From positions 124,001 to 188,000 of the forward strand of contig JAFXCD010000045.1 in the NCBI GenBank assembly GCA_017521605.1: a DNA stretch of 64,000 nt, read 5' to 3'. Under the pieces are notes generated by a model. The model was not told the origin of the DNA. It did not search any database and saw only the letters and a list, made by a program, of their open reading frames with translations. The translations under genes and the position numbers were made by a program. The DNA is from Lachnospiraceae bacterium (GTDB lineage Bacteria > Bacillota > Clostridia > Lachnospirales > Lachnospiraceae). Below, piece after piece: positions 11,195-58,163 of the stretch. Numbering within the stretch: position 1 is the first letter of the stretch; every line of letters begins with the position of its first letter.

Positions 11195-11214
11195 GGAAAG
11201 GTTGGTAAATAGAT

Positions 11215-13635: not shown

Positions 13636-13711
13636 TTTAGTTGAAAAACATGTAAGAATGGGGTATGATATTCTAAATTGGGTATCGTACCCTATATTTT
13701 TGGAGGTAGTC

Positions 13712-15136: not shown

Positions 15137-15149
15137 AGGGATGGAACAA

Positions 15150-16196: not shown

Positions 16197-16204
16197 TTGG
16201 CATA

Positions 16205-16233
16205 TTGAGTTTGTGAAAATAACGTGATATACT
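16205..16233 (+). promoter_or_regulatory. Likely promoter for the PilZ-VanZ operon
   Basis: TTGAGT and TATACT separated by 17 bases in the gap between queA and the PilZ gene. Confidence 0.55.
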
Positions 16234-16284
16234 ATATATATTAACAAGATTTGGCATACTTTCAATGACGAAAGAGGGATGATT

Positions 16285-17185: not shown

Positions 17186-17337
17186 AGAAATTTATTGTTA
17201 TATTATTAAGTTGTATTTTTCTATGCTTGTGTTTAATGGCTTGTGATACACAGGAGGAAACAGTAAGCGATGAGAATAAGGATGTTTGGAAAGAAGCTGT
17301 AGAATCATTCTACAGCTTCTTTTCATATATCAGATAA
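17182..17337 (+). CDS. Tiny (51-residue) putative lipoprotein
   Basis: A GTG start overlaps the VanZ stop (GTGA) and opens a frame encoding a perfect lipoprotein signal: KK, a hydrophobic core, and the lipobox LMAC at residues 18-21. It then has an acidic 30-residue tail ending in FYSFFSYIR. No strong ribosome binding site is present, so expression would rely on coupling to VanZ. Its last 28 bases overlap the end of the convergent tyrA gene, and its 3' part contains the shared terminator hairpin. The signal peptide is the main reason to believe it. Function unknown. Confidence 0.5.
   Translation: MKKFIVILLSCIFLCLCLMACDTQEETVSDENKDVWKEAVESFYSFFSYIR
17291..17324. terminator. Bidirectional terminator inside two convergent gene ends
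   Basis: A perfect 15-bp inverted repeat (17291-17305 with 17307-17321), followed by T residues on the plus strand and preceded by A-rich sequence serving the minus strand. It lies within the last codons of the tiny lipoprotein and spans the stop of tyrA. Confidence 0.75.
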
Positions 17338-34506: not shown

Positions 34507-35289
34507 ATGAAGGTAGTATTATTGGCAGGTGGATTAGGAACAAGAATTTCAGAAGAATCCATTTTCAAACCGAAACCAATGATTGAAATTGGTGGTAAAC
34601 CCATAATTTGGCATATTATGAAAGAATATTCTTATTATGGGTTTAATGAGTTTATAATATGTGCCGGGTATAAACAACATGTAATAAAGGAATGGTTTGC
34701 TGATTATTTTTTACACAATAGTGATATTACATTTGATTTTACAAAGGGAAATAATGATATGATTATACATAATCAACATTGTGAACCTTGGAAAGTGACT
34801 GTTGTTGATACTGGTTTAAATACTATGACGGGAGGGCGTATTAAGCGCATCAAGTCTTATGTTGGAAATGAAACTTTTATGATGACTTATGGAGATGGAG
34901 TATGTGATGTTAATATTGCAGAATTACTGAAATATCATCAATCACATGGAAAAATTGCTACATTAACAGCAGTTATGTTAGAACAACAGAAAGGTGTACT
35001 GGATATAGATGGAAATAATGCAGTAAAATCATTTAGAGAAAAGAGTCATTCAGATGGTGCTCCAATTAATGCAGGATATATGGTATTGAATTCAGAAATA
35101 TTTGATTATCTAGAAAACGATGAAACTATTTTTGAAAGAAAGCCATTAGAAAGTTTAGCTGCGCAAGGAGAATTAATGTCATTTGTTCATAAAGGTTTTT
35201 GGCAATGTATGGACACGGCAAGAGAAAGAGATATTCTTGAAAAATTTCTCCAAAAAGGAACTGCGCCGTGGAAAAAATGGAAAGATTAG
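34507..35289 (+). CDS. rfbF: Glucose-1-phosphate cytidylyltransferase
   Basis: It makes CDP-glucose from CTP and glucose-1-phosphate, the first step to CDP-linked deoxysugars. The 260-residue protein starts MKVVLLAGGLGTRISEES and has FKPKPMIEIGGKPIIWHIMK, YGDGVCDVN and EKSHSDGAPINAGYMV, which match RfbF. ATG 34507 follows GTAGGAGAAATG. It is the first gene of the AT-rich cassette and is directly followed by the CDP-glucose dehydratase. rfbF and rfbG are normally found together. Confidence 0.95.
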   Translation: MKVVLLAGGLGTRISEESIFKPKPMIEIGGKPIIWHIMKEYSYYGFNEFIICAGYKQHVIKEWFADYFLHNSDITFDFTKGNNDMIIHNQHCEPWKVTVVDTGLNTMTGGRIKRIKSYVGNETFMMTYGDGVCDVNIAELLKYHQSHGKIATLTAVMLEQQKGVLDIDGNNAVKSFREKSHSDGAPINAGYMVLNSEIFDYLENDETIFERKPLESLAAQGELMSFVHKGFWQCMDTARERDILEKFLQKGTAPWKKWKD

Positions 35290-35297
35290 GGATGAAT

Positions 35298-36347
35298 ATG
35301 AGTTTGGATATGAAGTTTTACAAAAATAAGAGAGTTTTTGTGACGGGGCATACAGGGTTTAAGGGGACATGGTTATGCAAAATGTTAGTGAATGCAGGAG
35401 CAGTTGTTACTGGGTATGCACTAGAACCACCAACATCACCTTCTTTGTTTGAAATAACAAAAATTGAGAAAAATATTAATTCAATAATTGGTGACATTCG
35501 TGATTACAATGCATTAAAAATAGCATTTGATAAAGCACAGCCAGAAATTGTTTTACATTTGGCGGCACAACCAATTGTACGTGAAAGTTATAAAAATCCA
35601 GCATACACATATGAAACAAATGTTATGGGGACAGTCAATATTTTGGAGTGTGTACGAAATAGTTCTTGTGTTAAATCATTTTTAAATGTGACGACTGATA
35701 AGGTATACTTAAACAAAGAATGGGAATGGGGATACCGTGAGAATGAAGAGTTGGATGGTTTCGATCCATATTCTAATTCAAAGTCATGTTCAGAATTAGT
35801 GACTCATTCCTATAAGAATAGTTTTTTTTGTGATGGGAAAGTGGCTATTTCTACTGCACGTGCTGGTAATGTTATTGGTGGTGGTGATTTTGCGAATGAT
35901 AGAATTATACCTGACTGTATACGAGCTGCAATGAAGGGGGAAAGTATTATTGTAAGAAATCCTTATTCAACCAGACCATATCAACATGTGCTTGAACCAT
36001 TATATGCGTATTTAATGATTGCTGCTAAACAATATGACGAAAAGAAATATGCTGGATATTATAATGTTGGTCCTGATGAAGTTGATTGCTTTCAGACTGG
36101 AGCTTTGGTGGATTTGTTTGTAAAATACTGGGGAGATGGTATGAAGTGGGAAAATCGCTATGATGGAGGACCCCATGAAGCGAAATTTTTAAAGTTAGAT
36201 TGCTCAAAGCTGAAGGCTACATTTGGATGGAAACCACATTGGAATCTAGACATAGCAATTGAGAAGGTTGTTGAGTGGACTAAGTGTTGGTTGAATGAGG
36301 AAGATGTGAGTGAATGCATGGATAAGCAAATTTCAGAGTTTATTTAG
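35298..36347 (+). CDS. rfbG: CDP-glucose 4,6-dehydratase
   Basis: It converts CDP-glucose to CDP-4-keto-6-deoxyglucose. It is an extended SDR enzyme of about 349 residues, with the NAD motif TGHTGFKGTWL near the start, HLAAQPIVRESY, NVTTDKVY, a YSNSK motif and YNVGPDEVDCFQ near the end. Possible starts are ATG 35268 (overlapping rfbF), 35292, 35298 and 35310; AGGGATG before 35298 gives the best spacing. The product is the probable substrate of the downstream aldolase, TPP and SDR enzymes. No rfbH-type 3-dehydrase gene is present in the window. Confidence 0.94.
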   Translation: MSLDMKFYKNKRVFVTGHTGFKGTWLCKMLVNAGAVVTGYALEPPTSPSLFEITKIEKNINSIIGDIRDYNALKIAFDKAQPEIVLHLAAQPIVRESYKNPAYTYETNVMGTVNILECVRNSSCVKSFLNVTTDKVYLNKEWEWGYRENEELDGFDPYSNSKSCSELVTHSYKNSFFCDGKVAISTARAGNVIGGGDFANDRIIPDCIRAAMKGESIIVRNPYSTRPYQHVLEPLYAYLMIAAKQYDEKKYAGYYNVGPDEVDCFQTGALVDLFVKYWGDGMKWENRYDGGPHEAKFLKLDCSKLKATFGWKPHWNLDIAIEKVVEWTKCWLNEEDVSECMDKQISEFI

Positions 36348-36364
36348 GTATGGAGATAGAGTTA

Positions 36365-37399
36365 ATGAACAAGATAATGAATGTAGTATACCATAGCAGT
36401 GATTTATTTTCGCCAGTATTGGGAGTATCTTTAGCATCAGTTTTTGAAAATAATACAAGTATGGAAGAGATTAATGTATATATTTTTGATACCGCAATTT
36501 CGGATATAAATAAAAATAAATTGTATGAATTAGCTGCTAAATATAGCCGTAGTTTACATTTTATTCAAATGCCTGATATAAATAAAACTCAAAGATTAGG
36601 GCTTAAGGATGTGGGAAAAGCTGGTTGGTTTTTTAATTCATATATGAAGTTGTTTTTGGATGAACTATTGCCTGAAAACGTAGAAAGAGTACTATATTTG
36701 GATAGTGATGTTTTGGTTACAAGTGATTTGACTGAGTTGTGGAATATGGATATGAATGGGGGGTGTGCGGCTGGCGTAATTGATTGTCTGGGTGAGGCAT
36801 ATTATAAGGTTCTGGGTTTAAATGATGGCGCCATGTATTGTAATAGTGGTATTATTTTAGTAGATTTGATTAATTGGAAAAAACAGAGAATCGGGCAACG
36901 TGTAAGAGAGTATTGTGCAGAAAATGGCGGATATGTATTTTTTATGGAACAAACAGCTTTTAATGCTGCTTTGCAGGAAGAAATAATAATATTACATCCT
37001 AAGTATAATGTGTATTCTATGATGCAAATTTTGTCTTATGATGAACTTGTTAAGTTAAGGAAATTAGAACGTTATTATACAAAAGAAGATATTCAAGAAG
37101 CTGTTAAAAAACCTGTAATGATACATTTAACAAATTCATTTTTGTTAACTAATCGTGCTTGGCATGAAAATTCTAATCATCCTGAAAAAGAGTTGTATGA
37201 AAAATATAAAGAGAAGACGCCTTGGAAGGAAGAGCCCGGGTTTAAGGATACTCGAAATGTTAAAGATAAAATAATACAGGTGATTGTTGATGTACTTCCG
37301 CGACCTATTGTGTTATCTGTAGCGAGTGTTTTGTATAATTATATTCGAGTAAGAAAAATTGAGAAGTTAATAAAAGAAGCGAAGAAAAGTGCTAATTAA
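36365..37399 (+). CDS. Family 8 glycosyltransferase
   Basis: A retaining GT-A transferase of 344 residues that adds a hexose (commonly galactose or glucose) to the growing lipid-linked unit. The nucleotide-sugar DxD motif is in VLYLDSDVLVTSDL (about residues 115-128). CNSGIILVDL and a C-terminal HLTNSFLLTNRAWH, with the second metal-ligand His, fit GT8. A basic, amphipathic C-terminal tail (about 300-344) could bind the membrane. ATG 36365, behind GGAGATAGAG, is preferred to ATG 36350. Confidence 0.9.
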   Translation: MNKIMNVVYHSSDLFSPVLGVSLASVFENNTSMEEINVYIFDTAISDINKNKLYELAAKYSRSLHFIQMPDINKTQRLGLKDVGKAGWFFNSYMKLFLDELLPENVERVLYLDSDVLVTSDLTELWNMDMNGGCAAGVIDCLGEAYYKVLGLNDGAMYCNSGIILVDLINWKKQRIGQRVREYCAENGGYVFFMEQTAFNAALQEEIIILHPKYNVYSMMQILSYDELVKLRKLERYYTKEDIQEAVKKPVMIHLTNSFLLTNRAWHENSNHPEKELYEKYKEKTPWKEEPGFKDTRNVKDKIIQVIVDVLPRPIVLSVASVLYNYIRVRKIEKLIKEAKKSAN

Positions 37400-37419
37400 T
37401 TGTTGAAATGAGGAAAGTT

Positions 37420-38472
37420 GTGGAAAATAAAATACAAGTATTAGATTGTACGTTAAGAGATGGAGGATTAGGGCTGGAAGATGCTAATAAGAATAGCTTA
37501 TCTTCTATAAAATTTTCTGTTGAAGATATTGCATTTGTTTCAAATAAACTAGCTGATTCGTGTATAGATATTGTAGAATTAGGAGCAATAGAAATAACTG
37601 AGGATGATAGAACAGGATTTGCTATTTATCAAAGCATAGAAAGAATTTCAAGAATGATTCCGAAAAACAGAAAACCAAATCAGTTATTTGCGGCGCTTTT
37701 TAGAGGACCGGATACTCCTATAGAGGATATTCCGGATTGGAACCCATCATTATGTGAAGTGGTAAGAGTAATAATTAGATATTCAGAAATGCAAAAGTCA
37801 TTAGATTTTTGCTCGTCATTAACTAAAAAAGGTTATAAGGTATTTGTTCAACCGATGTTAACAATGAGATATACGGATTCTGAAATAGATCTTCTGATTA
37901 ATGAGACTAATAAAATGAATGCGTACGCATTATATTTTGTGGATAGTTATGGATACATGCAAAAAGGGGATATAAAGAGACTTTTTGAAAGATATGATAA
38001 GACATTACATCCAGAGATTAGAATAGGTTTCCATGCTCATAATAATATGGATTTGGCATTTTCAAATGTGCTTGAGTTTATTGAAATTTCACATGATAGA
38101 AAGATTGTAGTAGATTCTTGTTTAATGGGAATGGGTCAAGGGGCAGGCAATTTGCAAACGGAACTGTTAATTGGATATCTTAATGAATCATCATACAACT
38201 TTGATTCTATTCTTGATGCGTGTGAATTGATTGAAAAGTACAATATACAAACTTTATGGGGGTATTCTGTGACTAGATTGCTTCCGGCAATTCATAGGAC
38301 GGCGTATAAGTATGCGATTGTCCTACGTTTTCAATATAAGTTCAGTTATAGTGAAATAAACATGATATTGTCTCAAATACCTGAAGAATTAAAGCAGCGT
38401 TATACTCCAGAAAATACTGCTACACTATTAAAAGTTACTGGTTTTGGACATAAATTAGTCATTGAGGAGTAA
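37420..38472 (+). CDS. HMGL-family aldolase (4-hydroxy-2-oxovalerate aldolase-like)
   Basis: A TIM-barrel metal-dependent aldolase/lyase. The signature LDCTLRDGG is at residues 8-16 (Arg13 and Asp14 catalytic/metal), GFHAHNN gives the metal-binding His205 and His207, and GMGQGAGNLQTE resembles DmpG/BphI aldolases. The dehydrogenase partner of those aldolases is absent here. In this locus the enzyme sits between a glycosyltransferase and a TPP enzyme, so it may supply or consume pyruvate or an aldehyde in sugar branching (inference). GTG 37420 with GAGGAAAG ahead is preferred; ATG 37408 has no binding site. Confidence 0.8.
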   Translation: MENKIQVLDCTLRDGGLGLEDANKNSLSSIKFSVEDIAFVSNKLADSCIDIVELGAIEITEDDRTGFAIYQSIERISRMIPKNRKPNQLFAALFRGPDTPIEDIPDWNPSLCEVVRVIIRYSEMQKSLDFCSSLTKKGYKVFVQPMLTMRYTDSEIDLLINETNKMNAYALYFVDSYGYMQKGDIKRLFERYDKTLHPEIRIGFHAHNNMDLAFSNVLEFIEISHDRKIVVDSCLMGMGQGAGNLQTELLIGYLNESSYNFDSILDACELIEKYNIQTLWGYSVTRLLPAIHRTAYKYAIVLRFQYKFSYSEINMILSQIPEELKQRYTPENTATLLKVTGFGHKLVIEE

Positions 38473-38475
38473 TAA

Positions 38476-40170
38476 ATGAATGTTTCAGAATATTTTGTGG
38501 ATTTTTTGATTGAAAAAGGTGTGACAGATGTTTTTGGAATTCCGGGAGGAGTTATTTTAGATTTAATTTATGAATTTAATAAACGCACAGAAATTAAAGC
38601 GCATTTGAGTTATCATGAGCAGGCGGCGGCTTTTGAAGCTTGCGGCTATTCTCAATGTGATTATAAATTAGGGGTTGCATATGCAACTAGGGGACCAGGA
38701 TTTACAAACATGATTACAGGTATTGCAGAAGCATTTAGTGAGTCCTTACCAATTCTGTTTGTTACTTCACATTCAGGTAAGATAGTAGGTCATTCGATGC
38801 GTTTTGAGAAAGAACAGGAAGTAGATACTGCTTCCATGGTACGTCATATAACGAAATACGCTGTTGCTATTGACTCTATTGAAGAAGTAGTGGAAGAAAT
38901 AAATAAGGCATATATTATTGCAATGGAAGGTAGGAAGGGTCCGGTTTTATTAGATTTTTCTGCTGATTTATGGAACCAGAAATTGAATGACCATGAAACT
39001 GAAAATGAAGTAATAATTAGAAAATTTAAAAATGATGTATTAAATGAAGTAATAAAAGATATTACTAAATATTTATTAAATTCACAGCGCCCCATCATAC
39101 TTGTTGGAGATGGTGTGAGACAGGCTGGTGCAACTGAAATGTTAAAAGTATTTGCTGATGATATTAATGTGCCTGTATTATCTAGTCGTTGTTCGCAGGA
39201 TGTTGGAGCACAATGTAATAATTATTATGGATATATTGGAAGCCATGGGATTAGATATAGTAATTTTATTTTTGCTAAAGCAGATTTAGTGATAGCAATT
39301 GGGAATAGATTAGCATTTCCCATCACATCAAAAAGTTTTATAAAAGCGTTGGCAAATAAGCGAGTATTAAGAATTGATGTAGATTCAAATGAATTATCAA
39401 GGAATATTCCGAATTCGGTTAAATATGAAATTGATGCTAAAGTTGTTTTGGAAGAACTAATTAACAAACCAATTACAGTGATGAATCATTCTCAATGGAT
39501 TGAGGTATGTAATAAGTTAAAGTTTGAATTGAAGATGTTTGATTTGAATTTAGCTATTAAAAATATTAATTGCATATTAAATAAAGTTAAGTCGTGTCAA
39601 AGTATTTGCTGTGATGTGGGGAACAATGAGTTTTGGGTCTCGCGTTCTTATGTTGAGAGTAAAATACAAAATAGAATAATATATTCTAAGTCTTTTGGGG
39701 CGCTGGGGTGTTCGATAGCAAAAGCAATAGGAGCATATTATTTTACTAAGAAACCTGTAGTTTGCTTTATAGGTGATCAAGGATTTCAATTAAACGTACA
39801 AGAATTACAATTGATTGCTCAAAATCAATTACCTATATATATAATTGTGCTAAATAATAATTCATCGGGAATGATTCGAAGTAGAGAAAAAACTCGATAT
39901 GGTGAATGTTATGTACATACTACTTGTCAAAGTGGTTATAGTGTTCCTGATATAATGGGATTGGCACAAGCTTATGGAATACAATATTGTGAATATATGA
40001 ATATAAACGAAGATATAGTGACTTTCTTTGGTGAAAAAACCCCGCTAATTGTTGAGGTGAAGTTAGGTGAGGAAATTGATTTGGAACCTAATCTACCGGC
40101 TGGTAATGATTGCGAAAATATGAGTCCTGAGATTCCCTATCTACTATATAAAGAATTAGATAAATTATAG
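38476..40170 (+). CDS. TPP-dependent enzyme, acetolactate-synthase-like
   Basis: A thiamine diphosphate enzyme of 564 residues in three-domain IlvB order: pyrimidine-binding domain (1-165, catalytic Glu48 in SYHEQAAAFEA), central domain (about 185-330) and diphosphate-binding domain (about 365-545, GDQGFQLNVQELQ with the metal-binding NNNSSGMI). No regulatory subunit is encoded. Related enzymes such as YerE transfer a two-carbon acetyl unit from pyruvate to a CDP-4-keto sugar in branched-sugar synthesis. Its place directly after the aldolase and in an rfbFG locus supports that kind of role; a normal branched-chain amino-acid role is unlikely. The acceptor is unknown. Confidence 0.82.
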   Translation: MNVSEYFVDFLIEKGVTDVFGIPGGVILDLIYEFNKRTEIKAHLSYHEQAAAFEACGYSQCDYKLGVAYATRGPGFTNMITGIAEAFSESLPILFVTSHSGKIVGHSMRFEKEQEVDTASMVRHITKYAVAIDSIEEVVEEINKAYIIAMEGRKGPVLLDFSADLWNQKLNDHETENEVIIRKFKNDVLNEVIKDITKYLLNSQRPIILVGDGVRQAGATEMLKVFADDINVPVLSSRCSQDVGAQCNNYYGYIGSHGIRYSNFIFAKADLVIAIGNRLAFPITSKSFIKALANKRVLRIDVDSNELSRNIPNSVKYEIDAKVVLEELINKPITVMNHSQWIEVCNKLKFELKMFDLNLAIKNINCILNKVKSCQSICCDVGNNEFWVSRSYVESKIQNRIIYSKSFGALGCSIAKAIGAYYFTKKPVVCFIGDQGFQLNVQELQLIAQNQLPIYIIVLNNNSSGMIRSREKTRYGECYVHTTCQSGYSVPDIMGLAQAYGIQYCEYMNINEDIVTFFGEKTPLIVEVKLGEEIDLEPNLPAGNDCENMSPEIPYLLYKELDKL

Positions 40171-40180
40171 GAGATTTATG

Positions 40181-41188
40181 ATGAAATATTTTGAAGGAAA
40201 AACAGTATTGATTACTGGCGCTACGGGATTAGTTGGTAGTTGCTTGGTTGATAAATTGATGCAAATGGATAATGTGCATGTTATTGCTTTGAGTCGTAGT
40301 GAGAGTAAATTGAAAGATATATTTAATAGGTATTTAGGAAATTGTAGATTCTCTATCTGTGTACAAGATGTATCCTTATTTTTGCCACAATTCAATAAAC
40401 CGATAGATATTATATTTCATGCGGCTAGTCCAATTGCAGGTGGTGTAATAAAGAATAATCCAGTGGATGTTATTACCCCCAATATTATTGGAACCAAAAA
40501 TTTTCTGGATTTTTTGAGAACTCAGGAGATTAGAAATGGAGTTAAGGGAAGATTGGTTCTGTTTTCCTCAGCGACAGTGTATTCAAATATAACTACCGAT
40601 GATAAAATGGTTTCTGAGGAAGATACAGCTATTGCCGACACTCTTGATGCTACAAACGCGCCTTATTCTGAGTCAAAAAGAATTGTTGAAGTATTAGCAA
40701 AGGCGTATTACAAGCAATATGATGTGGATTCAGTTATTGCAAGGTTTAGTTATATTTATGGTTATTCTTATTTTCAACCTAATACAGCTTTTTATGAGTT
40801 TTTAAATAAAGCAATTTCGGGTAACGATATAGTATTAAATAATTCAGATATTGCTCGAAGGGATAATATATATGTGAAGGATGCTGTAAGTGCATTATTA
40901 TGTTTATGTGAAAAGGGAAAATCAGCGGAATCGTATAATATATCTTCAAATGGAGAGTTAAACAATTTCATGGCTGTTGATGAAATGGCAAGTATAATTG
41001 CTAAAGTAGTAAATAAGATAAAGGGAAGTTCGATAAATGTGAATTATCTTTTACCTATAAGTGATTCTAGAAAGCCAGGTGTTTTGTTAAATAATAATAA
41101 GATGAAAATGCTTGGATGGGAGATTAAGACTAGTGTTGAAAAAGGAATAGAAGAAACAATATGTCAAGTTGTTGATAAAAATATATAA
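40181..41188 (+). CDS. NAD-dependent sugar epimerase/reductase (extended SDR)
   Basis: A Rossmann-fold enzyme of 335 residues with the nucleotide motif TGATGLVGSCL at the start, FHAASPIAGG, FSSATVYSN and an active-site YSESK. DNIYVKDAVSALLCL and YNISSNGE follow. It would act on a nucleotide sugar, probably reducing or epimerising the product of the upstream TPP enzyme; analogy is with YerF-type reductases. AGGAG lies seven bases before ATG 40181, so this is preferred to ATG 40178. The exact reaction cannot be read from sequence. Confidence 0.85.
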   Translation: MKYFEGKTVLITGATGLVGSCLVDKLMQMDNVHVIALSRSESKLKDIFNRYLGNCRFSICVQDVSLFLPQFNKPIDIIFHAASPIAGGVIKNNPVDVITPNIIGTKNFLDFLRTQEIRNGVKGRLVLFSSATVYSNITTDDKMVSEEDTAIADTLDATNAPYSESKRIVEVLAKAYYKQYDVDSVIARFSYIYGYSYFQPNTAFYEFLNKAISGNDIVLNNSDIARRDNIYVKDAVSALLCLCEKGKSAESYNISSNGELNNFMAVDEMASIIAKVVNKIKGSSINVNYLLPISDSRKPGVLLNNNKMKMLGWEIKTSVEKGIEETICQVVDKNI

Positions 41189-41209
41189 TATATTTGGAGA
41201 GATGTAGTC

Positions 41210-42985
41210 ATGTATTTAGAAAAGATTAATTGTCCGATAGATTTGAAAAAAATGTCAATGGATGCACTTCCGATTTTGGCGACTGAAATTAGAGAAGTAT
41301 TGATTAATAAGGCAAGTGTATTTGGAGGGCATCTTTCTTCTAATTTAGGTATTGTAGACGCAACAATAGCTATACATTATGTGTTTGATTCGCCTAAAGA
41401 TAAAATAGTATTTGATGTTTCTCATCAGTGTTATACGCATAAGATTCTTACTGGTAGAAAAGACGGTTTCATAGAACCGGATAAATATAGCAAGATTAAC
41501 GGCTATACAAATCCTGAGGAAAGTATACATGACTATTTTAGAGTTGGTCATACTGCTACATCAATAAGTTTGGCTTGTGGAATGGCAAAAGCAAGAGATT
41601 TAAGAGGCGATAATGAAAATATTATAGTTATTATTGGTGATGGTTCACTAAGTGGTGGAGAGGCTTTAGAAGGATTAGATTATGCAGGTTCAGATATAAA
41701 AGGAAATCTTATTATTATTTTCAATGATAACCAGATGAGTATTGCTGAGAATCATGGCGGAATATATAATAATCTACAACTTCTTAGAGAAACTGAGGGG
41801 CAAGCTGAGAATAATATTTTTAGAGCATTTGGATGTGACTATAGATTTGTAAAAGATGGTAATGATGTAGCAAGTGTAATAAAAGTATTGCAAGAAGTTA
41901 AAGATATTGAACATCCTATTGTGATACATATATGTACAACTAAGGGGAAGGGATATTCTTACGCTGAAAAGAATAAAGAACAAACTCATTGGGTACGTCC
42001 ATTTAGTTTGCAAAATGGCGAAGAAAAGAATCCCTTTAACGGTGAACGTTATGATAGAATTATTAGAGACTATCTTATTGATAAAATGAAAGCTGATTCT
42101 GCAGTGGTGACTATGATAGCAGCGGTTCCGGATGCACTTTCTTTTTCAGAAGAATATCGTAAGAAGGCAGGAGAGCAATTTGTTGATGTAGGTATTGCAG
42201 AAGAACATGCTATTTCTATGGCTGCCGGAATTGCTAGAAATGGTGGTAAACCTGTATTTGCTACAATGTCAACTTTCTATCAAAGAACGTATGATCAAAT
42301 ATCACAGGAGTTGTGCATCAATATGGCTCCGGCTACATTAATTGTTGTCAATGCGTCGGTTTATGCTGCAAATGATGTAACACATATTGGAATTTTTGAT
42401 ATTCCGATGATGTCAAATATTCCGAATTTGGTATATTTAGCCCCTACTAATAAACAAGAGTATCTTGCCATGTTAGATTGGAGTATTGAACAAAATGAGT
42501 ATCCGGTAGCTATTAGAGCGCCTAGAAATGGTGTGTTTTATGCAAAAGGAGAAGTGGATAGTGACTATAGTGAATTGAATAAGTATAAAGTCACACAAGA
42601 AGGTAGTAACATTGCAATTATTGCTTTAGGTGATTTCTATCAAATGGGTGAGAACTTGGCAGATGAGATTGTGTTCAAATATGGATTTAACCCAACATTA
42701 ATTAATCCAAGATACATTACCGGTATAGATGATAAATTACTTGAACAATTAAAAAATGAGCATTATATTGTAATAACACTTGAAGATGGAGTATTAGAAG
42801 GCGGTTTTGGTCAAAAGATTGCTAGTTTTTATGGAACAAGTACTGTTAAAGTAATCAATTATGGATTAAAAAAAGAATTTTTAGATCGATATAATGTAGA
42901 AAAGACAATGGAAAAAAATCGCCTAAGAATTGATTTGATAATAAATGATTTAGATGAATTGGTTAATTCTAATATTATAGTTTAG
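41210..42985 (+). CDS. DXS-like TPP enzyme in the sugar cassette
   Basis: The 591-residue protein has the DXS/transketolase layout: diphosphate-binding half (GGHLSSNLG, DVSHQCYTHKILTGR, VGHTATSIS, IIGDGSLSGGEA, NDNQMSI), then the pyrimidine half (DVGIAEEHAISMAAG, STFYQRTYDQI, THIGIFD) and a C-terminal domain. However, the strongly conserved DRAG of DXS, before THxGxFD, is replaced by NASV (about residues 381-384), and the protein is about 30 residues shorter than usual. Inference: a diverged paralogue that transfers a two-carbon unit to a sugar, rather than the housekeeping isoprenoid enzyme. It lies 21 bases after the SDR. Confidence 0.82.
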   Translation: MYLEKINCPIDLKKMSMDALPILATEIREVLINKASVFGGHLSSNLGIVDATIAIHYVFDSPKDKIVFDVSHQCYTHKILTGRKDGFIEPDKYSKINGYTNPEESIHDYFRVGHTATSISLACGMAKARDLRGDNENIIVIIGDGSLSGGEALEGLDYAGSDIKGNLIIIFNDNQMSIAENHGGIYNNLQLLRETEGQAENNIFRAFGCDYRFVKDGNDVASVIKVLQEVKDIEHPIVIHICTTKGKGYSYAEKNKEQTHWVRPFSLQNGEEKNPFNGERYDRIIRDYLIDKMKADSAVVTMIAAVPDALSFSEEYRKKAGEQFVDVGIAEEHAISMAAGIARNGGKPVFATMSTFYQRTYDQISQELCINMAPATLIVVNASVYAANDVTHIGIFDIPMMSNIPNLVYLAPTNKQEYLAMLDWSIEQNEYPVAIRAPRNGVFYAKGEVDSDYSELNKYKVTQEGSNIAIIALGDFYQMGENLADEIVFKYGFNPTLINPRYITGIDDKLLEQLKNEHYIVITLEDGVLEGGFGQKIASFYGTSTVKVINYGLKKEFLDRYNVEKTMEKNRLRIDLIINDLDELVNSNIIV

Positions 42986-43008: not shown

Positions 43009-44205
43009 ATGAAGTTAATAATTAATAGAGGATTAATTGTTTTTAATTCATTAATACGCTGGTTGGTAAATAAAAAAAGAGTAAATGTAATTGATGAGAA
43101 TTATAAAGTCATACTTATAGTATTTCAGCAGATTTTTGGAGATTCTATTATTATTTCAGATTCATTACATGCTTATAAAGATTTGTTCTCTGAAAAGGAA
43201 GGCTATGAGATTGTTTTTTTAGCAAGACCATCTGTATTAGCTTTTATGAAAGAGACACTTTCTTTACCTGACGAAATTAAATACGAATCTCTAGATTTCA
43301 AGAAGTATTTAGAAGATTATAAATATTATAGAAAATGCAATGAACGTTTTGAAGGAAAGATAGATACGCTTATTGTTCCGGGAACAAGTCTATCTGCAGA
43401 GATCTTTAGTACTTCCTGCAACGCTAAAAGAAAGATTGGTTTAATTAGAAGTTTAAAAGTGAAAGGATCATTTATTACTAAATTATTTTCTCAAATTGCA
43501 TATACAGAGAAGGTAAAAACTGATAAGGATGACATGATGTTGCAACGACATAGGCAGTTGCTTAATTATTTGGGAAATAATAGTTATAAAGCCAGATTGC
43601 CTGAGTTGATTAAAAAAGAAAAAGAGATAAAGGATATACAATATTGTGTTTTATGTCCAGGGGCTTCAAAGATGGAAAAATGCTGGCCAACAGAACGTTT
43701 TTCAGAAGTTATTGATTTTATTATTGAACATTATAACATGAACGTTCATTTATGTGGTGGTACTGAGGAAATACAATATGAAAGATTAATATATGCACAA
43801 GTAAAATATCCAGAAAGAATTATTAGTCATATTGGTAAAACAACTTTTTCTGAATGGTCCTCAATTGTACAACATGCAGATTTGGTTATAGGTAATGATA
43901 GTGCTACAATGCATCTTGCGGCTGCAAGCAGACGGAAAGCAATATGTATTGCAGGTGTTTATGATAAATATCAATTTTTTCCATATAAAGTTGATGAGTT
44001 AGACGAAATTGATAGACTGCCCAATACTATAATAAAAGAAATGCATTGTGAATGGTGTAGAACTAAAGGCTATGATGCTGGTTTTGGTAATTCAGAATGT
44101 ACGAAGAGAATTAAAGAGAATAAATGTGCACTTTGTATAGAAGCTATTACTGTTGATGAAGTGAAAGCTCAAATAATGCATGAAATGGAAGGCAATGAAT
44201 TGTAA
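43009..44205 (+). CDS. Family 9 glycosyltransferase (heptosyltransferase-like)
   Basis: A 398-residue GT-B transferase. The C-terminal half has the GT9 features: CPGASKMEKCWPTERFSEVI, HLCGGTEEI and VIGNDSATMHLAAAS. GT9 enzymes use ADP-heptose as donor in lipopolysaccharide core synthesis. Here the gene lies directly before a complete ADP-heptose pathway, so it is the natural candidate for heptose transfer into this polysaccharide. The C-terminal region has a Cys-rich patch (HCEWCR, SECTKR, CALC) that could bind a metal. Confidence 0.9.
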   Translation: MKLIINRGLIVFNSLIRWLVNKKRVNVIDENYKVILIVFQQIFGDSIIISDSLHAYKDLFSEKEGYEIVFLARPSVLAFMKETLSLPDEIKYESLDFKKYLEDYKYYRKCNERFEGKIDTLIVPGTSLSAEIFSTSCNAKRKIGLIRSLKVKGSFITKLFSQIAYTEKVKTDKDDMMLQRHRQLLNYLGNNSYKARLPELIKKEKEIKDIQYCVLCPGASKMEKCWPTERFSEVIDFIIEHYNMNVHLCGGTEEIQYERLIYAQVKYPERIISHIGKTTFSEWSSIVQHADLVIGNDSATMHLAAASRRKAICIAGVYDKYQFFPYKVDELDEIDRLPNTIIKEMHCEWCRTKGYDAGFGNSECTKRIKENKCALCIEAITVDEVKAQIMHEMEGNEL

Positions 44206-44206
44206 A

Positions 44207-45637
44207 ATGAGTTATTTAAATAATATTGAAAAGATGAATATTTTGGTTATTGGTGACGTAATGCTGGATACATATTACAATGGAGATGTGAGTCGCATAT
44301 CCCCTGAAGCACCTGTTCCGGTATTTAGAAAAAGAAGTGAAAGATGTGTTTTGGGTGGTGCAGCAAATGTTGCGGCTAATTTGGTCGCAGCAAATCAAAA
44401 TGTCTATATGATGACTATCGTTGGTAACGATGAAAATGGAAATAAGCTAATAAAAATGTTTGAAAATCAGCAGATAAATACTGAGTTGATTGTAACTTTA
44501 GAACGTAATACAACAGTAAAAACTAGATTTGTTGCAACAAATAATCAACAAGTGTTGAGGCTAGATGTCGAAGATACAGAGGAATTGAGTTCAAAAGATT
44601 GTAAAATGTTGTTAAGTACATTAGAAGGTACAATAGATAACTTTGATTTGATTTTGTTGTCTGATTATTTAAAAGGATTTTTGACTTATGAATTTACACA
44701 AGGGGTTCTTCAGTTAGCAAAAAGCAAAAATATACCAGCAATTATTGACGTAAAGGATCCCCAAATTAATAAGTATCATGATGCTTTTTTATTAAAGCCA
44801 AATTTAAAAGAATTGAGAGAGTTAACTGGTGAACAGGTAAGTAATGATGAAGAAATTGTAAAAGCATCTGAAAAGCTTCGAGATATTTGTGATTGCAAAT
44901 ATGTACTTACTACCTGTGGTGCCAGAGGGATGGTTTTAGTAGGTGATGGTGAACCATATTTTATAAATTCTGTAGGTCAGGAAGTGTTTGATGTAACTGG
45001 TGCTGGAGATACAACAATTGCTTATCTTGCAGCTTGTATGGTAAATGGGTTTTCCATGAAGAAATCTGTTGATATAGCGAATTATGCAGCTGGTATACAA
45101 GTATCAAAGGTTGGTACATCCTCTGTTTATTGGCATGAAATACGTGAATGTTTAGCTGACAATGCAGATGGTATAATGCATAAATACATAAGTGGACAAG
45201 CAGTTGAAAAAATAAGAGATATAAATAAAGACAAAAAAATAGTTTTTACAAATGGATGCTTTGATATTTTGCATAGTGGTCATATTCGTTATTTACAGGA
45301 AGCAGCTAAACTAGGTGATATTTTGATAATGGGACTAAATAGTGATGCGTCAGTCAAGAGATTAAAAGGTCCTGAAAGACCTGTAAATAATGAGATGGAT
45401 AGAGCAGAATTACTATGTGCACTAGGCTTTGTTGACTATGTAGTTATATTTGAAGAAGATACACCTTTGGAATTGATTAAAAAGATCCAACCTGACGTTT
45501 TAGTTAAAGGTGGTGACTATTCTAATGAGTATGTGATAGGGACAAAAGAAGTGGAGGAAAGAGGCGGTAGATTAGTTTTAATTCCCTTTGTTGAAGGAAA
45601 ATCAACAACAAACATTATTGAAAAGATTAAGCATTAG
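44207..45637 (+). CDS. hldE: Bifunctional heptose-7-phosphate kinase / heptose-1-phosphate adenylyltransferase
   Basis: It carries out two steps to ADP-heptose. The N-terminal PfkB kinase domain (about 1-320) has DVMLDTYYNGDVSRISPEAPVP, GGAANVAANL and TGAGDT (about 264-269); the C-terminal nucleotidyltransferase domain (about 345-476) has FTNGCFDILHSGH and VKGGDY. The length of 476 matches HldE/RfaE. ATG 44207 begins one base after the GT9 stop and gives the canonical N-terminus; ATG 44195, closer to GGAAGG, is an alternative that would overlap. It works with gmhA, gmhB and hldD immediately downstream. Confidence 0.95.
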   Translation: MSYLNNIEKMNILVIGDVMLDTYYNGDVSRISPEAPVPVFRKRSERCVLGGAANVAANLVAANQNVYMMTIVGNDENGNKLIKMFENQQINTELIVTLERNTTVKTRFVATNNQQVLRLDVEDTEELSSKDCKMLLSTLEGTIDNFDLILLSDYLKGFLTYEFTQGVLQLAKSKNIPAIIDVKDPQINKYHDAFLLKPNLKELRELTGEQVSNDEEIVKASEKLRDICDCKYVLTTCGARGMVLVGDGEPYFINSVGQEVFDVTGAGDTTIAYLAACMVNGFSMKKSVDIANYAAGIQVSKVGTSSVYWHEIRECLADNADGIMHKYISGQAVEKIRDINKDKKIVFTNGCFDILHSGHIRYLQEAAKLGDILIMGLNSDASVKRLKGPERPVNNEMDRAELLCALGFVDYVVIFEEDTPLELIKKIQPDVLVKGGDYSNEYVIGTKEVEERGGRLVLIPFVEGKSTTNIIEKIKH

Positions 45638-45673
45638 TTTATGGATATTAATTATATAGAAAGAGGAATCTAT

Positions 45674-46252
45674 ATGTATGATTTAATTGAAAAACGCATA
45701 TCAGAAAGTATTGATGTAAAAAAAGATATATTAAATAATCCAGTTCTTTTGGAAGAGGTGTCTAAGACTGCAGATATTATAATTTCATGTATTAAGAATG
45801 GTGGGAAAATAGTACTTTGCGGTAATGGGGGCTCTGCTTCTGATGCACTTCATTTTGCAGGGGAGATAGTAGGTCGTTTTCAGAGAGAACGTTCACCATG
45901 GGCTGCGATAGTTTTAAATTCAGATGTGACAACTATGACAGCAATTGCAAATGATTATGGATATGATGATATGTTCGCACGTCAAGCAGAAGGATTACTA
46001 ACAGATAAAGATGTGTTGATAGGAATAAGTACGAGTGGAAATTCTGAAAATGTATATCGTGCAGTTAAAGTTGCACATAAAAAAGGTGCAAAGGTGGTTG
46101 CTTTTTTAGGTAGAGATGGTGGTAAAATTTACAAAGAGGCGGATTTTCACCTAGTGGTGCCTAGTATGAATACAGCTCGTATACAGGAGTGTCATATTAC
46201 ATTGATACATATAATATGTGAAATTGTAGAAAATGAAATTACAACAGTTTAG
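45674..46252 (+). CDS. gmhA: Sedoheptulose-7-phosphate isomerase
   Basis: GmhA isomerises sedoheptulose-7-phosphate to D-glycero-D-manno-heptose-7-phosphate, the first committed step to ADP-heptose. The 192-residue SIS-domain protein has CGNGGSASDALHFAGEIVGRF, ANDYGYDDMFARQ and GISTSGNSENV. AAGAGG lies seven bases before ATG 45674, and the family N-terminus starts there, so the upstream ATG 45641 is rejected. It is second in the hldE-gmhA-gmhB-hldD series. Confidence 0.95.
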   Translation: MYDLIEKRISESIDVKKDILNNPVLLEEVSKTADIIISCIKNGGKIVLCGNGGSASDALHFAGEIVGRFQRERSPWAAIVLNSDVTTMTAIANDYGYDDMFARQAEGLLTDKDVLIGISTSGNSENVYRAVKVAHKKGAKVVAFLGRDGGKIYKEADFHLVVPSMNTARIQECHITLIHIICEIVENEITTV

Positions 46253-46260
46253 GAGCAAAT

Positions 46261-46836
46261 ATGAAAGCTGTTTTTTTGGATAGAGATGGTACGATTAATA
46301 TAGAGAAACATTATCTTTATAAAATAGAAGATTTTGAATTTATTTTGAATGCTATAGAAGGATTAAAGCTTCTACAACAGATGGGTTATATGCTGATTAT
46401 AGTAACGAATCAATCGGGTATAGGTAGAGGATATTACACTGAAGAAGCTTTTTTGAGATTAAATAATTGGATGTTAAATCGTTTAGAAGTAGAAGGAATT
46501 CATATTGAAAAAGTTTATTATTGTCCTCATTTACCAGGTGCAAAAGTTGAAAAATATCGTATGAATTGTAAATGTCGTAAGCCGTCACTTGGAATGTATG
46601 AGAAGGCAATTGAGGAGTTTGAGATAGAATTATCAAAAAGTTTTGCTATTGGAGATAAGATAAGGGATTGTGAAATTTGTTTTACGACGGATTGTCGGGG
46701 TTTTTTGATAGACAATAATGAGAGTACAGATGTAATAAATAGAGTAAAATTAGGTCAGATAAAGAATGTTCAATATGCAAATGATTTATATGAATGTGCA
46801 AAAATAATTTGTAAAATGGATATGGAGGAAACGTAA
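46261..46836 (+). CDS. gmhB: D-glycero-D-manno-heptose-1,7-bisphosphate 7-phosphatase
   Basis: A HAD-superfamily phosphatase of 191 residues that removes the 7-phosphate between the two HldE steps. The nucleophile motif FLDRDGTIN is at residues 5-13, VTNQSGIGRG is motif II, and a Cys-rich zinc loop (YYCPHLPG ... NCKCRKP) is typical of GmhB. Its context between gmhA and hldD confirms the assignment. It overlaps hldD by one base (TAATG). Confidence 0.95.
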   Translation: MKAVFLDRDGTINIEKHYLYKIEDFEFILNAIEGLKLLQQMGYMLIIVTNQSGIGRGYYTEEAFLRLNNWMLNRLEVEGIHIEKVYYCPHLPGAKVEKYRMNCKCRKPSLGMYEKAIEEFEIELSKSFAIGDKIRDCEICFTTDCRGFLIDNNESTDVINRVKLGQIKNVQYANDLYECAKIICKMDMEET

Positions 46837-47801
46837 TGATTATTGTAACAGGTGGTGCAGGTTTTATTGGTAGCTGCGTAGTAAGATCTTTAAATGATAC
46901 TGGATATGAAGATATTGTTATAGTTGATAATATTGGTTCAACTGATAAATGGCTAAATATACGTAATAAGAAGTATATTAAATATGTGCATAAAAATGTT
47001 TTTTTAGAAGAACTACAGACTTATGATAATGTTACAGCGATTATACATATGGGGGCTCAATCTGCCACTACAGAAAGAGATTTTGATTATTTATGGAAAA
47101 ATAATTTTGAATATACCAGAGCACTGTGGGATTATTGTGCTGAGAAACAAATAAGTTTTATTTATGCAAGTTCTGCAGCAACATATGGTGATGGCAAAAG
47201 TGGATTTGATGATAGAATGGATATTGACAAGCTGCTTCCTTTAAATGGTTATGGGTACTCTAAACAGGTGTTTGACCTATGGGTGAAGCATCAAGCTAAG
47301 GTCTTTCCTAAGCAATATGTGGGATTGAAATTTTTTAATGTGTATGGACCTAATGAATATTTTAAGGGTAATATGGCAAGTATGATATTTCATGGTTTTA
47401 GACAGATTCAAGAAACTGGTTCAATTAAGTTGTTTAAGTCTTGTAATCCTATTTATAAGGATGGTGGGCAGCTTAGAGATTTTGTATATGTAAAGGATAT
47501 TTGTAATGTTATATTATGGATGTTGGATAATGCACATGTTAGTGGATTGTTTAATGTAGGAACAGGGCGAGCACAGAGTTTTAAAGAATTGGCAGAAGCA
47601 ACATTCCATGCTTTAAACATGGAACCCAATATTGTATACATTGACATGCCGGAAAATTTGAAGAAAAAGTATCAGTATTATACTCAAGCAGAGATTGATA
47701 AGTTACGTAAAGTTGGTTATGATAAAGTGTTTTTTGATTTAGAAGCTGGTGCTAGTGATTATGTAAAGGAATATTTAGATAATGATTATTTAGTATTTTA
47801 G
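46836..47801 (+). CDS. hldD: ADP-L-glycero-D-manno-heptose 6-epimerase
   Basis: HldD converts ADP-D-glycero- to ADP-L-glycero-D-manno-heptose, the final donor form. The 321-residue SDR begins IIVTGGAGFIGS and has SATTERDFDYLWKNN, YASSAATYGDG, YGYSKQVFDLWV, NVYGPNEYFKGNMASM and FNVGTGRAQSFKELA, all close to the HldD pattern. Translation is coupled to gmhB by TAATG. Its presence indicates the L,D form of heptose rather than only the D,D precursor. Confidence 0.94.
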   Translation: MIIVTGGAGFIGSCVVRSLNDTGYEDIVIVDNIGSTDKWLNIRNKKYIKYVHKNVFLEELQTYDNVTAIIHMGAQSATTERDFDYLWKNNFEYTRALWDYCAEKQISFIYASSAATYGDGKSGFDDRMDIDKLLPLNGYGYSKQVFDLWVKHQAKVFPKQYVGLKFFNVYGPNEYFKGNMASMIFHGFRQIQETGSIKLFKSCNPIYKDGGQLRDFVYVKDICNVILWMLDNAHVSGLFNVGTGRAQSFKELAEATFHALNMEPNIVYIDMPENLKKKYQYYTQAEIDKLRKVGYDKVFFDLEAGASDYVKEYLDNDYLVF

Positions 47802-50529: not shown

Positions 50530-51636
50530 TTGAAAAAAATTGGTATATTAACATATCACACAGGATATAATTATGGTGCTAGCTTGCAAGCATATGCATT
50601 GCAAACGACAATAAAAAAAATGGGTTTTCAAAGTGAAATTATCAATTTTGAAACTGAAGAATTTGTTGCAAGTAGAGAGATGTTCAGTCGGAAACCTAAA
50701 AGATTGAAAGAGGTTATAAAAATAGTATCACGTATTCCGTATTTTAATTCCTTAAATAAAAGACAAAAGTTGTTTGATGATTATACAAAGAATTGCTTAA
50801 TTACGAGTCCTTTATATCGAACAGAGGAAGAAGTTATTAAACATGCAGAAGATTATGAGTGCATAGTATGCGGAAGTGATCAAATTTGGAATCTTTCACA
50901 AGATGATGCTCCTGCCGCAAATCCATTATTTTTTCTTAATTTTCCTAAAAAGCAAAGACGTATATCTTATGCAGCTTCATTTGGTAAATGGGTTAAAGAG
51001 GCTCCGAACAATGAAGATATATTTTTGCCATGGTTAAAGCAATTTGATGCGATTTCTGTCAGGGAAATTAGTGGTGTTGAATATTTAAAATCTCTTGCAA
51101 TAGATTGTGAAATTACATTAGATCCAACGATTCTTCTAGATGCAGAGGAATATGATTCTATATGTGCAGATAGAATTATACAGGAAAAGTATGTTTTGTT
51201 GTTTTCTTGGATGTGTACCGATGATGTGGTAGAAGCAGCAAAAATGGTTGCTAAAGAATTAAATTTACCACTATATAATATAGTTCCACCACCGAGAGCT
51301 ATGGGAAAAGGTATTCCTAGAAAATTAGATATTGGTCCTAGAGAGTTTCTAAGTATGATAAAATATGCTGATTTTGTTGTAACAAATTCATTTCATGGAA
51401 CAGCGTTTGCTACGACATATAAAAAGCCATATGTATCAATTGTATCTGGAAAGCCGGATTTAAGAATGGAATCATTGCTTAAACAGCTGGGATTATCTGA
51501 TCATTTGGTATCTAAAGAATTTATTAATGTTCAGAGAATGATTAATACAGACTATTCTGATGTTCAGAATAAAAAAATAGAATTAAGAAAGTCGTCTATG
51601 GAGTATTTAGAAAGAGCACTAAAGGTGGATGAATAA
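50530..51636 (+). CDS. Polysaccharide pyruvyl transferase family protein
   Basis: A 368-residue cytoplasmic enzyme of the CsaB/WcaK type that adds ketal-linked pyruvate from PEP to sugars. It opens with ILTYHTGYNYGASLQAYAL, has CGSDQIWN and YAASFGK, and ends with TNSFHGTAFATTYKKPYV, where the His is a conserved family residue. The start codon is TTG at 50530, with AAGGAGAG at the right distance. It abuts the FrhB-like gene without a gap. The GSDQIWN form is common in clostridial loci, where actual pyruvyl transfer is not always proven. Confidence 0.87.
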   Translation: MKKIGILTYHTGYNYGASLQAYALQTTIKKMGFQSEIINFETEEFVASREMFSRKPKRLKEVIKIVSRIPYFNSLNKRQKLFDDYTKNCLITSPLYRTEEEVIKHAEDYECIVCGSDQIWNLSQDDAPAANPLFFLNFPKKQRRISYAASFGKWVKEAPNNEDIFLPWLKQFDAISVREISGVEYLKSLAIDCEITLDPTILLDAEEYDSICADRIIQEKYVLLFSWMCTDDVVEAAKMVAKELNLPLYNIVPPPRAMGKGIPRKLDIGPREFLSMIKYADFVVTNSFHGTAFATTYKKPYVSIVSGKPDLRMESLLKQLGLSDHLVSKEFINVQRMINTDYSDVQNKKIELRKSSMEYLERALKVDE

Positions 51637-52815
51637 ATGATAAAGTATGATTTTAATGAGTATTGTTCTGGTTGTGGTGTTTGCGCTAATGTATGCCCCA
51701 CTAAAGCGATAAGAATGGTACAAGGAAAATATGGGTTCCCTATCCCACAAATTGATGAAGAGAAATGTGTTCATTGTGGAATGTGTGATAAAGTTTGTCC
51801 ACATATTAATGCAGAAAAAAGAATCACAGGACAGAAAGAAGTAAAAGGTACATGGTTATATGCATCAGAAGATAAAGAAGCAAAGATGCGTAGTTCATCC
51901 GGAAGTGCTTTTTATGAACTTGCAAAATATTATATTTCGCAACAATATTATGTTTGTGGATGTGTGTGGGATGAAAATTTAAAAGCTGAACACATTATTG
52001 GAAATGGATTAGATAGTATTAAAAGAATGCAGGGATCAAAATATGTCCAGAGTGATGTTGGAGATTGTTATAATAAAACCATTTCATTAATAAAAGAAGG
52101 GAATAAGGTGTTATTTTCTGGTACACCATGTCAGGCCGTAGCTATGCACAATTTGGCAATGCAAATAGATGGCGGAAAGTATAGAGATAATTTACTGACA
52201 GTGGCTGTGATATGTCATGGAATTGCAACTCCTAGTGCTTGGGAAAGTTATAAAAAATATCTATCTGAATTAAATGATAGTAGATTAATACATGTGAATT
52301 TTCGTGATAAGTCTCGCGATGGATATAAGAAATCATATTGTAAATACGAATATGAATCTGGCAAAGTTATTTACCAACCAACCTTTCTTCCTTCTTCAAA
52401 ATATATAGAAGCCACTTTAGTATATAATCTTGCAATGAGAAGCAGTTGTTCACATTGTGATTGCAAGGGAATAAACGAAGGATGTGATTTGGTTATTGGT
52501 GATTGGTATACAGAATGCATGGGTGAAGGTGAACTGGGAACATCTTGTATTGTGGCATTTACAGAAAGAGGGTATAGTGTAGCTAATGAAATATTGAACG
52601 GATTACGCGAAATAAAATATGATAAAATATTACAAGAGAATGGATTTATTGAAAAATCTGTTAATTTGGGTAAAAAACGTGATGAATTCTTGTTAAAAAT
52701 GAATAATGAGTTTTTTTGGGAAAGTGTAGAAGCATTATATCCGGCAAAGTATAAGTATAAGAAAATATTGATTAAATGCGGAATATATAATTTTATTAAG
52801 AAGTTTATGAAATAA
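51637..52815 (+). CDS. FrhB-like iron-sulfur protein paired with the pyruvyl transferase
   Basis: The 392-residue protein has two [4Fe-4S] ferredoxin motifs at its N-terminus (CSGCGVCANVCPTKA and CVHCGMCDKVCP), followed by a coenzyme F420 hydrogenase beta-subunit-like domain with SGTPCQAVA, CHGIATP, and a further Cys cluster (SSCSHCDCKG). It begins one base after the pyruvyl transferase ends. FrhB-like proteins beside pyruvyl transferases recur in polysaccharide loci; their redox role is not known. An F420-dependent reaction is doubtful in a Clostridium-like organism. Confidence 0.87.
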   Translation: MIKYDFNEYCSGCGVCANVCPTKAIRMVQGKYGFPIPQIDEEKCVHCGMCDKVCPHINAEKRITGQKEVKGTWLYASEDKEAKMRSSSGSAFYELAKYYISQQYYVCGCVWDENLKAEHIIGNGLDSIKRMQGSKYVQSDVGDCYNKTISLIKEGNKVLFSGTPCQAVAMHNLAMQIDGGKYRDNLLTVAVICHGIATPSAWESYKKYLSELNDSRLIHVNFRDKSRDGYKKSYCKYEYESGKVIYQPTFLPSSKYIEATLVYNLAMRSSCSHCDCKGINEGCDLVIGDWYTECMGEGELGTSCIVAFTERGYSVANEILNGLREIKYDKILQENGFIEKSVNLGKKRDEFLLKMNNEFFWESVEALYPAKYKYKKILIKCGIYNFIKKFMK

Positions 52816-54966: not shown

Positions 54967-55012
54967 ATTTAAAGGTACGCGATATGTAGCGTTTACGAAA
55001 GGGTTGTGTGTT

Positions 55013-57022: not shown

Positions 57023-57035
57023 GGAGTATATTGAA

Positions 57036-58151: not shown

Positions 58152-58163
58152 TAGGAGAGCAAA

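Follow-up and report, generated by a model that had tools for sequence, protein, structure and literature searches.

Which sugar is built by a capsule gene set that combines the opening steps of cytidine diphosphate (CDP)-deoxyhexose synthesis with an HMGL-type aldolase and two thiamine diphosphate (ThDP) enzymes? The question is raised by a 64,000-nucleotide stretch of a Lachnospiraceae bacterium genome (assembly GCA_017521605.1, contig JAFXCD010000045.1, positions 124,001 to 188,000; hereafter, the window), in which seven co-directional genes on the + strand occupy positions 34507-42985 of a capsule locus, running from rfbF and rfbG through genes for a GT8 glycosyltransferase, the aldolase, an acetolactate synthase (ALS)-like enzyme and a short-chain dehydrogenase/reductase (SDR) to a DXS-like gene. 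Because they share one direction and are separated by only 2-21 bases from stop to next start, these genes probably constitute a single operon. An original prediction, made from the sequence alone, proposed that this region encodes a new branched-chain CDP-sugar pathway distinct from that of yersiniose. The genes it named are present here and their family matches hold; the aldolase that it placed directly after rfbG does belong to the set, but the gene directly 3' of rfbG is that of the GT8 enzyme. We consider it reasonably probable, from sequence comparisons, that the product of the gene set is a CDP-6-deoxyhexose bearing a long carbon branch at C4, and the best reading of the set is as a variant of the ErwE/YerE-type pathway for long-branched CDP-sugars.

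The branching enzyme and its aldolase neighbour

By family assignment, RfbF and RfbG, which both pass their equivalog cut-offs (TIGR02623 and TIGR02622), would supply CDP-4-keto-6-deoxy-D-glucose. The ALS-like protein contains PF02776, PF00205 and PF02775, all over cut-off, and scores 320.6 bits against an acetolactate synthase cut-off of 538.35, about 218 bits below it. A separate canonical ilvB over cut-off is present in all five genomes that carry the set (the window's own and four described below). A 26-row tree of IlvB and ALS-like sequences places the five aldolase-linked enzymes in a single clade (100/100) outside the ilvB clade, with eight canonical IlvB proteins grouped at 100/99 and six yersiniose-type rows at 91/86. 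The catalytic glutamate is kept in the set, within an invariant H47-E48-Q49, and the ThDP motif reads GDQ in 5/5 set enzymes and GDG in the 21 other rows. The column of what we take to be W464 of AHAS II holds Trp in five IlvB rows, Tyr in three and Phe in the six yersiniose-type rows; the set has R, H, R, Q and A there. By score and clade, and with a separate ilvB in each genome, the ALS-like enzyme is distinct from biosynthetic acetolactate synthase. All five set enzymes also have Pro at window position P282, where 8/8 IlvB and 6/6 yersiniose-type rows have Arg, and the YerE-like enzyme JanthE (PDB 8rph) aligns with Pro in the same column; since P293 of JanthE has a role in holding flavin adenine dinucleotide (PMC12188165), no conclusion on the donor is drawn from this column alone.

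ErwE, the YerE-like ThDP enzyme of erwiniose synthesis in Pectobacterium atrosepticum, joins a hydroxylated 2-oxo acid to a CDP-4-keto sugar and is described as not using pyruvate and as preferring functionalised acids such as 4-hydroxy-2-oxo acids (PMC12247030). By analogy, the ALS-like enzyme of the window is proposed to couple a 2-oxo acid to a CDP-4-keto sugar. An HMGL-superfamily aldolase adjoins all five set ALS-like enzymes. Aldolases of this superfamily make 4-hydroxy-2-oxo acids, the class that ErwE prefers, and the aldolase beside the YerE-like enzyme would be the simplest source of such a donor. The RDGG and HAH motifs are kept in the six set aldolases, with R17, D18, H209 and H211 invariant, in agreement with the Arg-Asp and His-x-His metal/substrate motifs of 4-hydroxy-2-oxovalerate aldolases (DmpG/MhpE), and the six form one clade (100/100) among 34 rows. 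The original prediction had envisaged the addition of two carbons; the presence of the aldolase, together with the separate clade of the ALS-like enzyme, points instead to a longer, aldolase-made donor, as with ErwE for erwiniose (PMC12247030).

The predicted absence of rfbH is borne out, in that none of the 11 RfbH matches in the window assembly exceeds the 423-bit cut-off (best, 185.8 bits), although this absence is not absolute because the assembly (3.8 Mb, 125 contigs) is 92.87% complete and 5.99% contaminated. Among the five set genomes, RfbH over cut-off was found only in G1129 (724.2 bits), and not in the window's own genome (G000), G310, G1218 or G1234. The 3-deoxygenation by RfbH that marks the erwiniose/caryophyllose-type pathway would accordingly be missing except in G1129, which has the same set with rfbH, so that the lack of RfbH does not define the set. 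The combination expected for yersiniose, namely RfbH with neither aldolase nor DXS-like gene, is not that of the window. The broader expectation of a CDP-sugar branching pathway unlike that of yersiniose, with an aldolase and a second ThDP enzyme, is supported.

Recurrence of the gene set

Co-occurrence of these genes elsewhere, which the original prediction offered as a check, was found in three other genomes with the full enzyme set (locus L024 of G1234, L066 of G310 and L124 of G1129) and in a fourth without the DXS-like gene (L125 of G1218). The gene order of the window is kept in L066 (rfbF, rfbG, an acyltransferase-like gene, aldolase, ALS-like gene, classical SDR, DXS-like gene) and rearranged in L024 and in L124, which adds rfbH. 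This recurrence, twice in another order, indicates that the set is more than a chance assembly. L125 consists of rfbF, rfbG, two aldolases, GT8, the ALS-like gene and a classical SDR. Transposase-like remnants and an rfbG fragment (L125 6433-7106 and 11687-14155; translations read by eye) flank the second part of that set, and the second of these gaps follows the SDR, where the window and L066 hold the DXS-like gene.

The gene set is rare yet recurrent. An aldolase pattern scan of named genome contigs returned one locus, L024 of Lachnospiraceae bacterium RGIG6221, the products of which are identical to those of the window at 79% (RfbF), 70% (RfbG), 50% (aldolase), 45% (ALS-like), 50% (SDR) and 74% (DXS-like) of positions. 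Searched by alignment against 397 genomes of the family, the aldolase had matches in 95, with more than 248 bits only in its own genome and G310; among 392 genomes of the order, it matched its own and two others, more weakly and in longer frames. The ALS-like enzyme found only its own genome among 398 of the phylum (E <= 1e-120), and no close relative of the set was detected in 72,556 plasmid records (best identity 28.6% for the aldolase, 30.1% for the ALS-like enzyme and 58.7% for the DXS-like enzyme).

Among 138 genomes of the genus, the ALS-like enzyme had matches in 11: its own, two at >=700 bits and eight at 424-508 bits. An aldolase adjoins the ALS-like gene in 2/2 of the former and 0/8 of the latter (Fisher p = 0.022, or p = 0.036 with 0/6 when L131 and L132, which sit near contig ends, are left out; own genome excluded, and the numbers are small). 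The eight weaker matches have neither an aldolase nor a DXS-like match in the fetched stretch. Six of them combine rfbF, rfbG, rfbH, the ALS-like gene and an SDR-type gene (some named by eye), as in yersiniose synthesis; L130 and L133 are arranged differently, with two ALS-like genes apiece.

More distant loci suggest that the pairing of an aldolase with another ThDP enzyme recurs. L075, from a genome of the same taxonomic order, and L115, from a Desulfobaculum bizertense plasmid, both combine an HMGL aldolase with rfbF, rfbG, rfbH, a classical SDR and, instead of a DXS-like gene, split transketolases, and their aldolases group together (97/91). L075 includes an ALS-like enzyme, and its aldolase is part of a longer fusion protein; in L115 there are two split transketolases, rfbF and rfbG read as two pieces, and no ALS-like match occurs in 19 kb, pointing to a possible parallel, transketolase-based version of the set. 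Other candidates were set aside. The HMGL-ALS pairs of L082 (5208-10379) and L083 (9469-12098) were assigned to another pathway, with probably a different, unnamed product: the aldolase there adjoins a different ALS-like clade, and L082 has a fused nucleotidyltransferase-oxidoreductase and an alcohol dehydrogenase, identified by eye. L081 holds an HMGL gene near rfbF/rfbG and no ALS-like or DXS-like match. Neighbouring ilvB and dxs genes of Paraburkholderia were rejected as relatives, given that the annotated region L111 lists no sugar genes (L110 and L112, which lack annotation, were used solely for their dxs proteins). In L111 (Paraburkholderia largidicola plasmid, 8874-17363), ilvB-like, second dxs and 2-oxoglutarate dehydrogenase E1 genes lie close together outside annotated sugar clusters, and these three extra ThDP enzymes perhaps protect against a thiamine antimetabolite.

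The DXS-like enzyme and a candidate pathway

The DXS-like protein exceeds the cut-offs of NF008968 (510 bits) and NF003933, falls just under that of TIGR00204 (451.6 against 465.95) and matches 9kpq at 770.5 bits. Catalytic residues H49, E370 and H431 (E. coli DXS numbering) are kept in all four set members, as is R478; four other positions have changed, namely R99 (now D or E), Y392 (M or D), R420 (N) and D427 (N). Arg occurs at 478 in 0/18 other subfamily rows that have a residue there, so the set also differs from its own DXS-like subfamily. The canonical DXS of the window's genome shares 38% identity with the DXS-like protein and has every one of these eight E. coli residues, and 4/4 genomes that have the DXS-like gene also carry a separate dxs in which the N-terminal domain is complete; G1218 gave neither a DXS-like hit nor a full-length-type dxs hit. 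In 12 other loci of the DXS-like subfamily, some of which are truncated at the edge of a contig, any given family of neighbouring genes is shared by two at most. In the E. coli enzyme, R420 and R478 are important for binding glyceraldehyde-3-phosphate, and turnover by R420A is extremely inefficient (PMC11908136; R478 and this pocket are also covered in PMC11019550). The DXS-like enzyme has probably left isoprenoid metabolism.

The idea that the locus holds, by chance, ordinary copies of acetolactate synthase and DXS as its two ThDP enzymes is opposed by the canonical ilvB and dxs genes elsewhere in these genomes, the shortfall of about 218 bits, the lost glyceraldehyde-3-phosphate pocket residues and the poor turnover of R420A. 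Plain IlvB/DXS paralogues were rejected on the separate canonical copies and altered pocket residues, and we regard this explanation as very improbable; as the original prediction assumed, the two enzymes appear to be something other than plain IlvB and DXS. Closer to that prediction is the possibility that the DXS-like enzyme takes the CDP-sugar as its substrate, one sugar then being branched or extended by two ThDP enzymes. The four replacements shared by all set members do imply a changed aldehyde pocket, and transketolases have been proposed to move a hydroxyacetyl group onto a keto sugar in miharamycin and amipurimycin (PMC12247030), but the retained R478 would suggest a small anionic or polar acceptor; we consider action on the sugar quite unlikely.

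In the long-branch pathway that we prefer, the HMGL-type aldolase would join pyruvate and an aldehyde into a 4-hydroxy-2-oxo acid, which the YerE-like enzyme, acting as ErwE does, would decarboxylate, placing the acyl unit on the CDP-sugar at its C4 ketone; the SDR would reduce the ketone arising from branching, and a glycosyltransferase would then transfer the sugar to the capsule. We infer the order of aldolase, ThDP enzyme and SDR. The DXS-like enzyme may supply the aldehyde, or it may lengthen the branch, adding two carbons from pyruvate that end in a methyl group; this is the weakest step of the pathway, and we offer it tentatively and with some doubt. The branch of caryophyllose is a 1,3,4,5-tetrahydroxyhexyl group (PMC5706390); arguing from structure, the CH2 of this branch is consistent with an aldolase reaction, and the CH3-CHOH at its end would be consistent with one of DXS type. 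A more elaborate and rather unlikely version has the branch built from several pyruvates: the DXS-like enzyme, its phosphate pocket altered, would combine pyruvate with a small unphosphorylated aldehyde into an aldehyde or 1-deoxy acyloin, to which the aldolase would add a second pyruvate, and the GDQ-type YerE-like enzyme would join the resulting polyhydroxy 2-oxo acid to C4 of CDP-4-keto-6-deoxyglucose without 3-deoxygenation. The branched sugar so formed would be new, of C10-C12 and related to caryophyllose but with a 3-hydroxyl, its terminal methyl deriving from DXS-type chemistry.

Several observations weigh against this long-branch pathway, each chemical step of which is deduced from sequence. 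The aldolase lies far under the 4-hydroxy-2-oxovalerate aldolase cut-offs (TIGR03217, 79.9 against 286; NF006049, 86.6 against 229), and the six set aldolases, aligned to 1nvm, have L, Q, L, R, L and N in place of His in the column of DmpG H21, which we take to be the catalytic base, so that the aldolase chemistry may differ. The DXS-like set proteins form no single supported clade: in a 25-row tree with three set rows (L124 excluded; L094 and L095 dropped as fragmentary or truncated readings), the window and L024 proteins join at 100/100 with L066 apart, and all three come together in 20% of bootstrap trees. G1218 carries the set without the DXS-like gene, which implies either that this enzyme is dispensable at times or that L125, with its transposase-like remnants, has decayed. 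The acceptor of ErwE is a 3,6-dideoxy-4-keto sugar, and the window genome lacks RfbH over cut-off. Finally, the ALS-like protein finds its top PDB match in 5ahk, an entry labelled acetolactate synthase II and presumably the YerE of P. protegens (no confirming paper was found), and JanthE, the sole YerE-like structure confirmed by a paper, ranks only 13th or 7th among PDB matches.

The nearest PDB relatives, 5ahk and acetolactate synthases, and the missing DXS-like gene of G1218 would also agree with another scheme, in which the ALS-like enzyme adds a plain acetyl group from pyruvate, as for yersiniose, to give a two-carbon branch on 6-deoxyglucose, and the aldolase and DXS-like enzyme serve an unrelated building block such as a substituent. 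Yet within the genus the presence of the aldolase tracks the ALS-like clade, and the active-site columns of the set enzymes are unlike those of the yersiniose-type enzymes of that genus; we judge plain acetyl transfer unlikely.

Among known systems, the yersiniose A pathway (RfbF, RfbG, RfbH, YerE, YerF) shares rfbF, rfbG, an ALS-like ThDP enzyme and a reductase with the window, which differs in adding the aldolase and DXS-like enzyme and in lacking RfbH; the six same-genus yersiniose-type loci show the reverse in the stretch read. Erwiniose is a ten-carbon branched sugar of a surface polysaccharide (PMC12247030, PMC8657720), and differs in its 3,6-dideoxy acceptor from the window set, with its GDQ ThDP motif and no RfbH over cut-off. 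In Mycobacterium marinum, the YerE-like MMAR_2332, with an ErwE-like donor preference, serves caryophyllose, which also has a long branch (tetrahydroxyhexyl), on C4 of a 3,6-dideoxyhexose (PMC12247030, PMC5706390), but the acceptor is 3-deoxy. JanthE resembles the set enzymes in being YerE-like with an unusual ThDP motif, CDG rather than GDQ, and accepts a wide range of donors, including 4-hydroxy-2-oxovalerate with benzaldehyde (PMC12247030, PMC12188165). The DXS-like enzyme differs from DXS in its replaced residues and in its place in a sugar operon beside a YerE-like gene. Since long-branched CDP-sugars and their YerE-like enzymes are already published (PMC12247030), to call the pathway new was too strong; it is a variant with features of its own. 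What looks new, with the erwiniose and caryophyllose systems compared by their descriptions, is the coupling to an aldolase, the GDQ clade, the DXS-like partner and the use without RfbH; among the open-access papers searched, judged from their listings, none looked likely to describe HMGL or DXS-like genes in a cluster of this kind.

Capsule context and significance

The features of the set and the gene that follows it are listed in Table 1. The start codon of rfbG was picked by eye, with an alternative GTG start open at 35268. The GT8 gene has a homologue, 54% identical, in the G1218 locus; homologues of the window SDR occur in L024 (49%) and L124 (46%), and L066 and L125 carry the classical SDR instead.

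Table 1. Genes of the proposed branched-sugar set in the window and the adjoining GT9 gene
Feature	Coordinates	Strand	Evidence
rfbF, glucose-1-phosphate cytidylyltransferase	34507..35289	+	TIGR02623, 371.5 bits (cut-off 300.25)
rfbG, CDP-glucose 4,6-dehydratase	35292..36347	+	TIGR02622, 446.3 bits (cut-off 278.45)
GT8 glycosyltransferase, possible user of the sugar	36350..37399	+	PF01501, 118.2 bits
HMGL-type (DRE-TIM) aldolase, proposed maker of the 4-hydroxy-2-oxo acid donor	37408..38472	+	PF00682, 59 bits (cut-off 29)
YerE/ErwE-like ThDP decarboxylase-ligase with GDQ for GDG, proposed branching enzyme	38476..40170	+	ThDP domains, tree, motif
Extended SDR, putative YerF-like reductase for the ketone formed on branching	40178..41188	+	PF01370, 126.2 bits
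DXS-like ThDP enzyme (PRK12315 subfamily), aldehyde pocket changed; would make the aldehyde or the two-carbon extension	41210..42985	+	NF008968, 872.6 bits; residue changes
GT9 heptosyltransferase-type gene, context only, outside the proposed pathway	43009..44205	+	PF01075, 88.7 bits

The capsule locus begins at about 29822 with genes for PHP-type phosphatase-like, Wzz (PF02706), tyrosine-kinase-like, sortase-domain (PF04203) and sugar-phosphate transferase-like proteins, Wzz and the sortase being assigned by domain match and the others by eye. After the GT9 gene, four genes at 44180-47801 resemble HldE, GmhA, GmhB and HldD of ADP-heptose synthesis (by eye); homologues of the HldE-, GmhA- and GmhB-like genes are also found in L125. 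At 50530-52815, a polysaccharide pyruvyl transferase gene adjoins one for an FrhB/FdhB-type iron-sulphur protein. Genes at 55004-59285, with domains assigned by match and names given by eye, encode a fused nucleotidyltransferase-phosphoenolpyruvate mutase, an iron-containing alcohol dehydrogenase and a phosphonopyruvate decarboxylase-like ThDP enzyme, and on their account a phosphonate, for instance hydroxyethylphosphonate, may be a further component of the polysaccharide.

More than 200 YerE-like enzymes have been collected by gene-cluster similarity, the vast majority of them without a known sugar structure (PMC12247030). Such enzymes are wanted as catalysts for chiral tertiary alcohols, and the set described here offers a candidate for the enzyme that produces the unusual donor acid. 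The GDQ clade marker together with a neighbouring aldolase would allow long branches to be predicted from sequence and, if the proposed pathway is true, such sugars would be made both with and without 3-deoxygenation.

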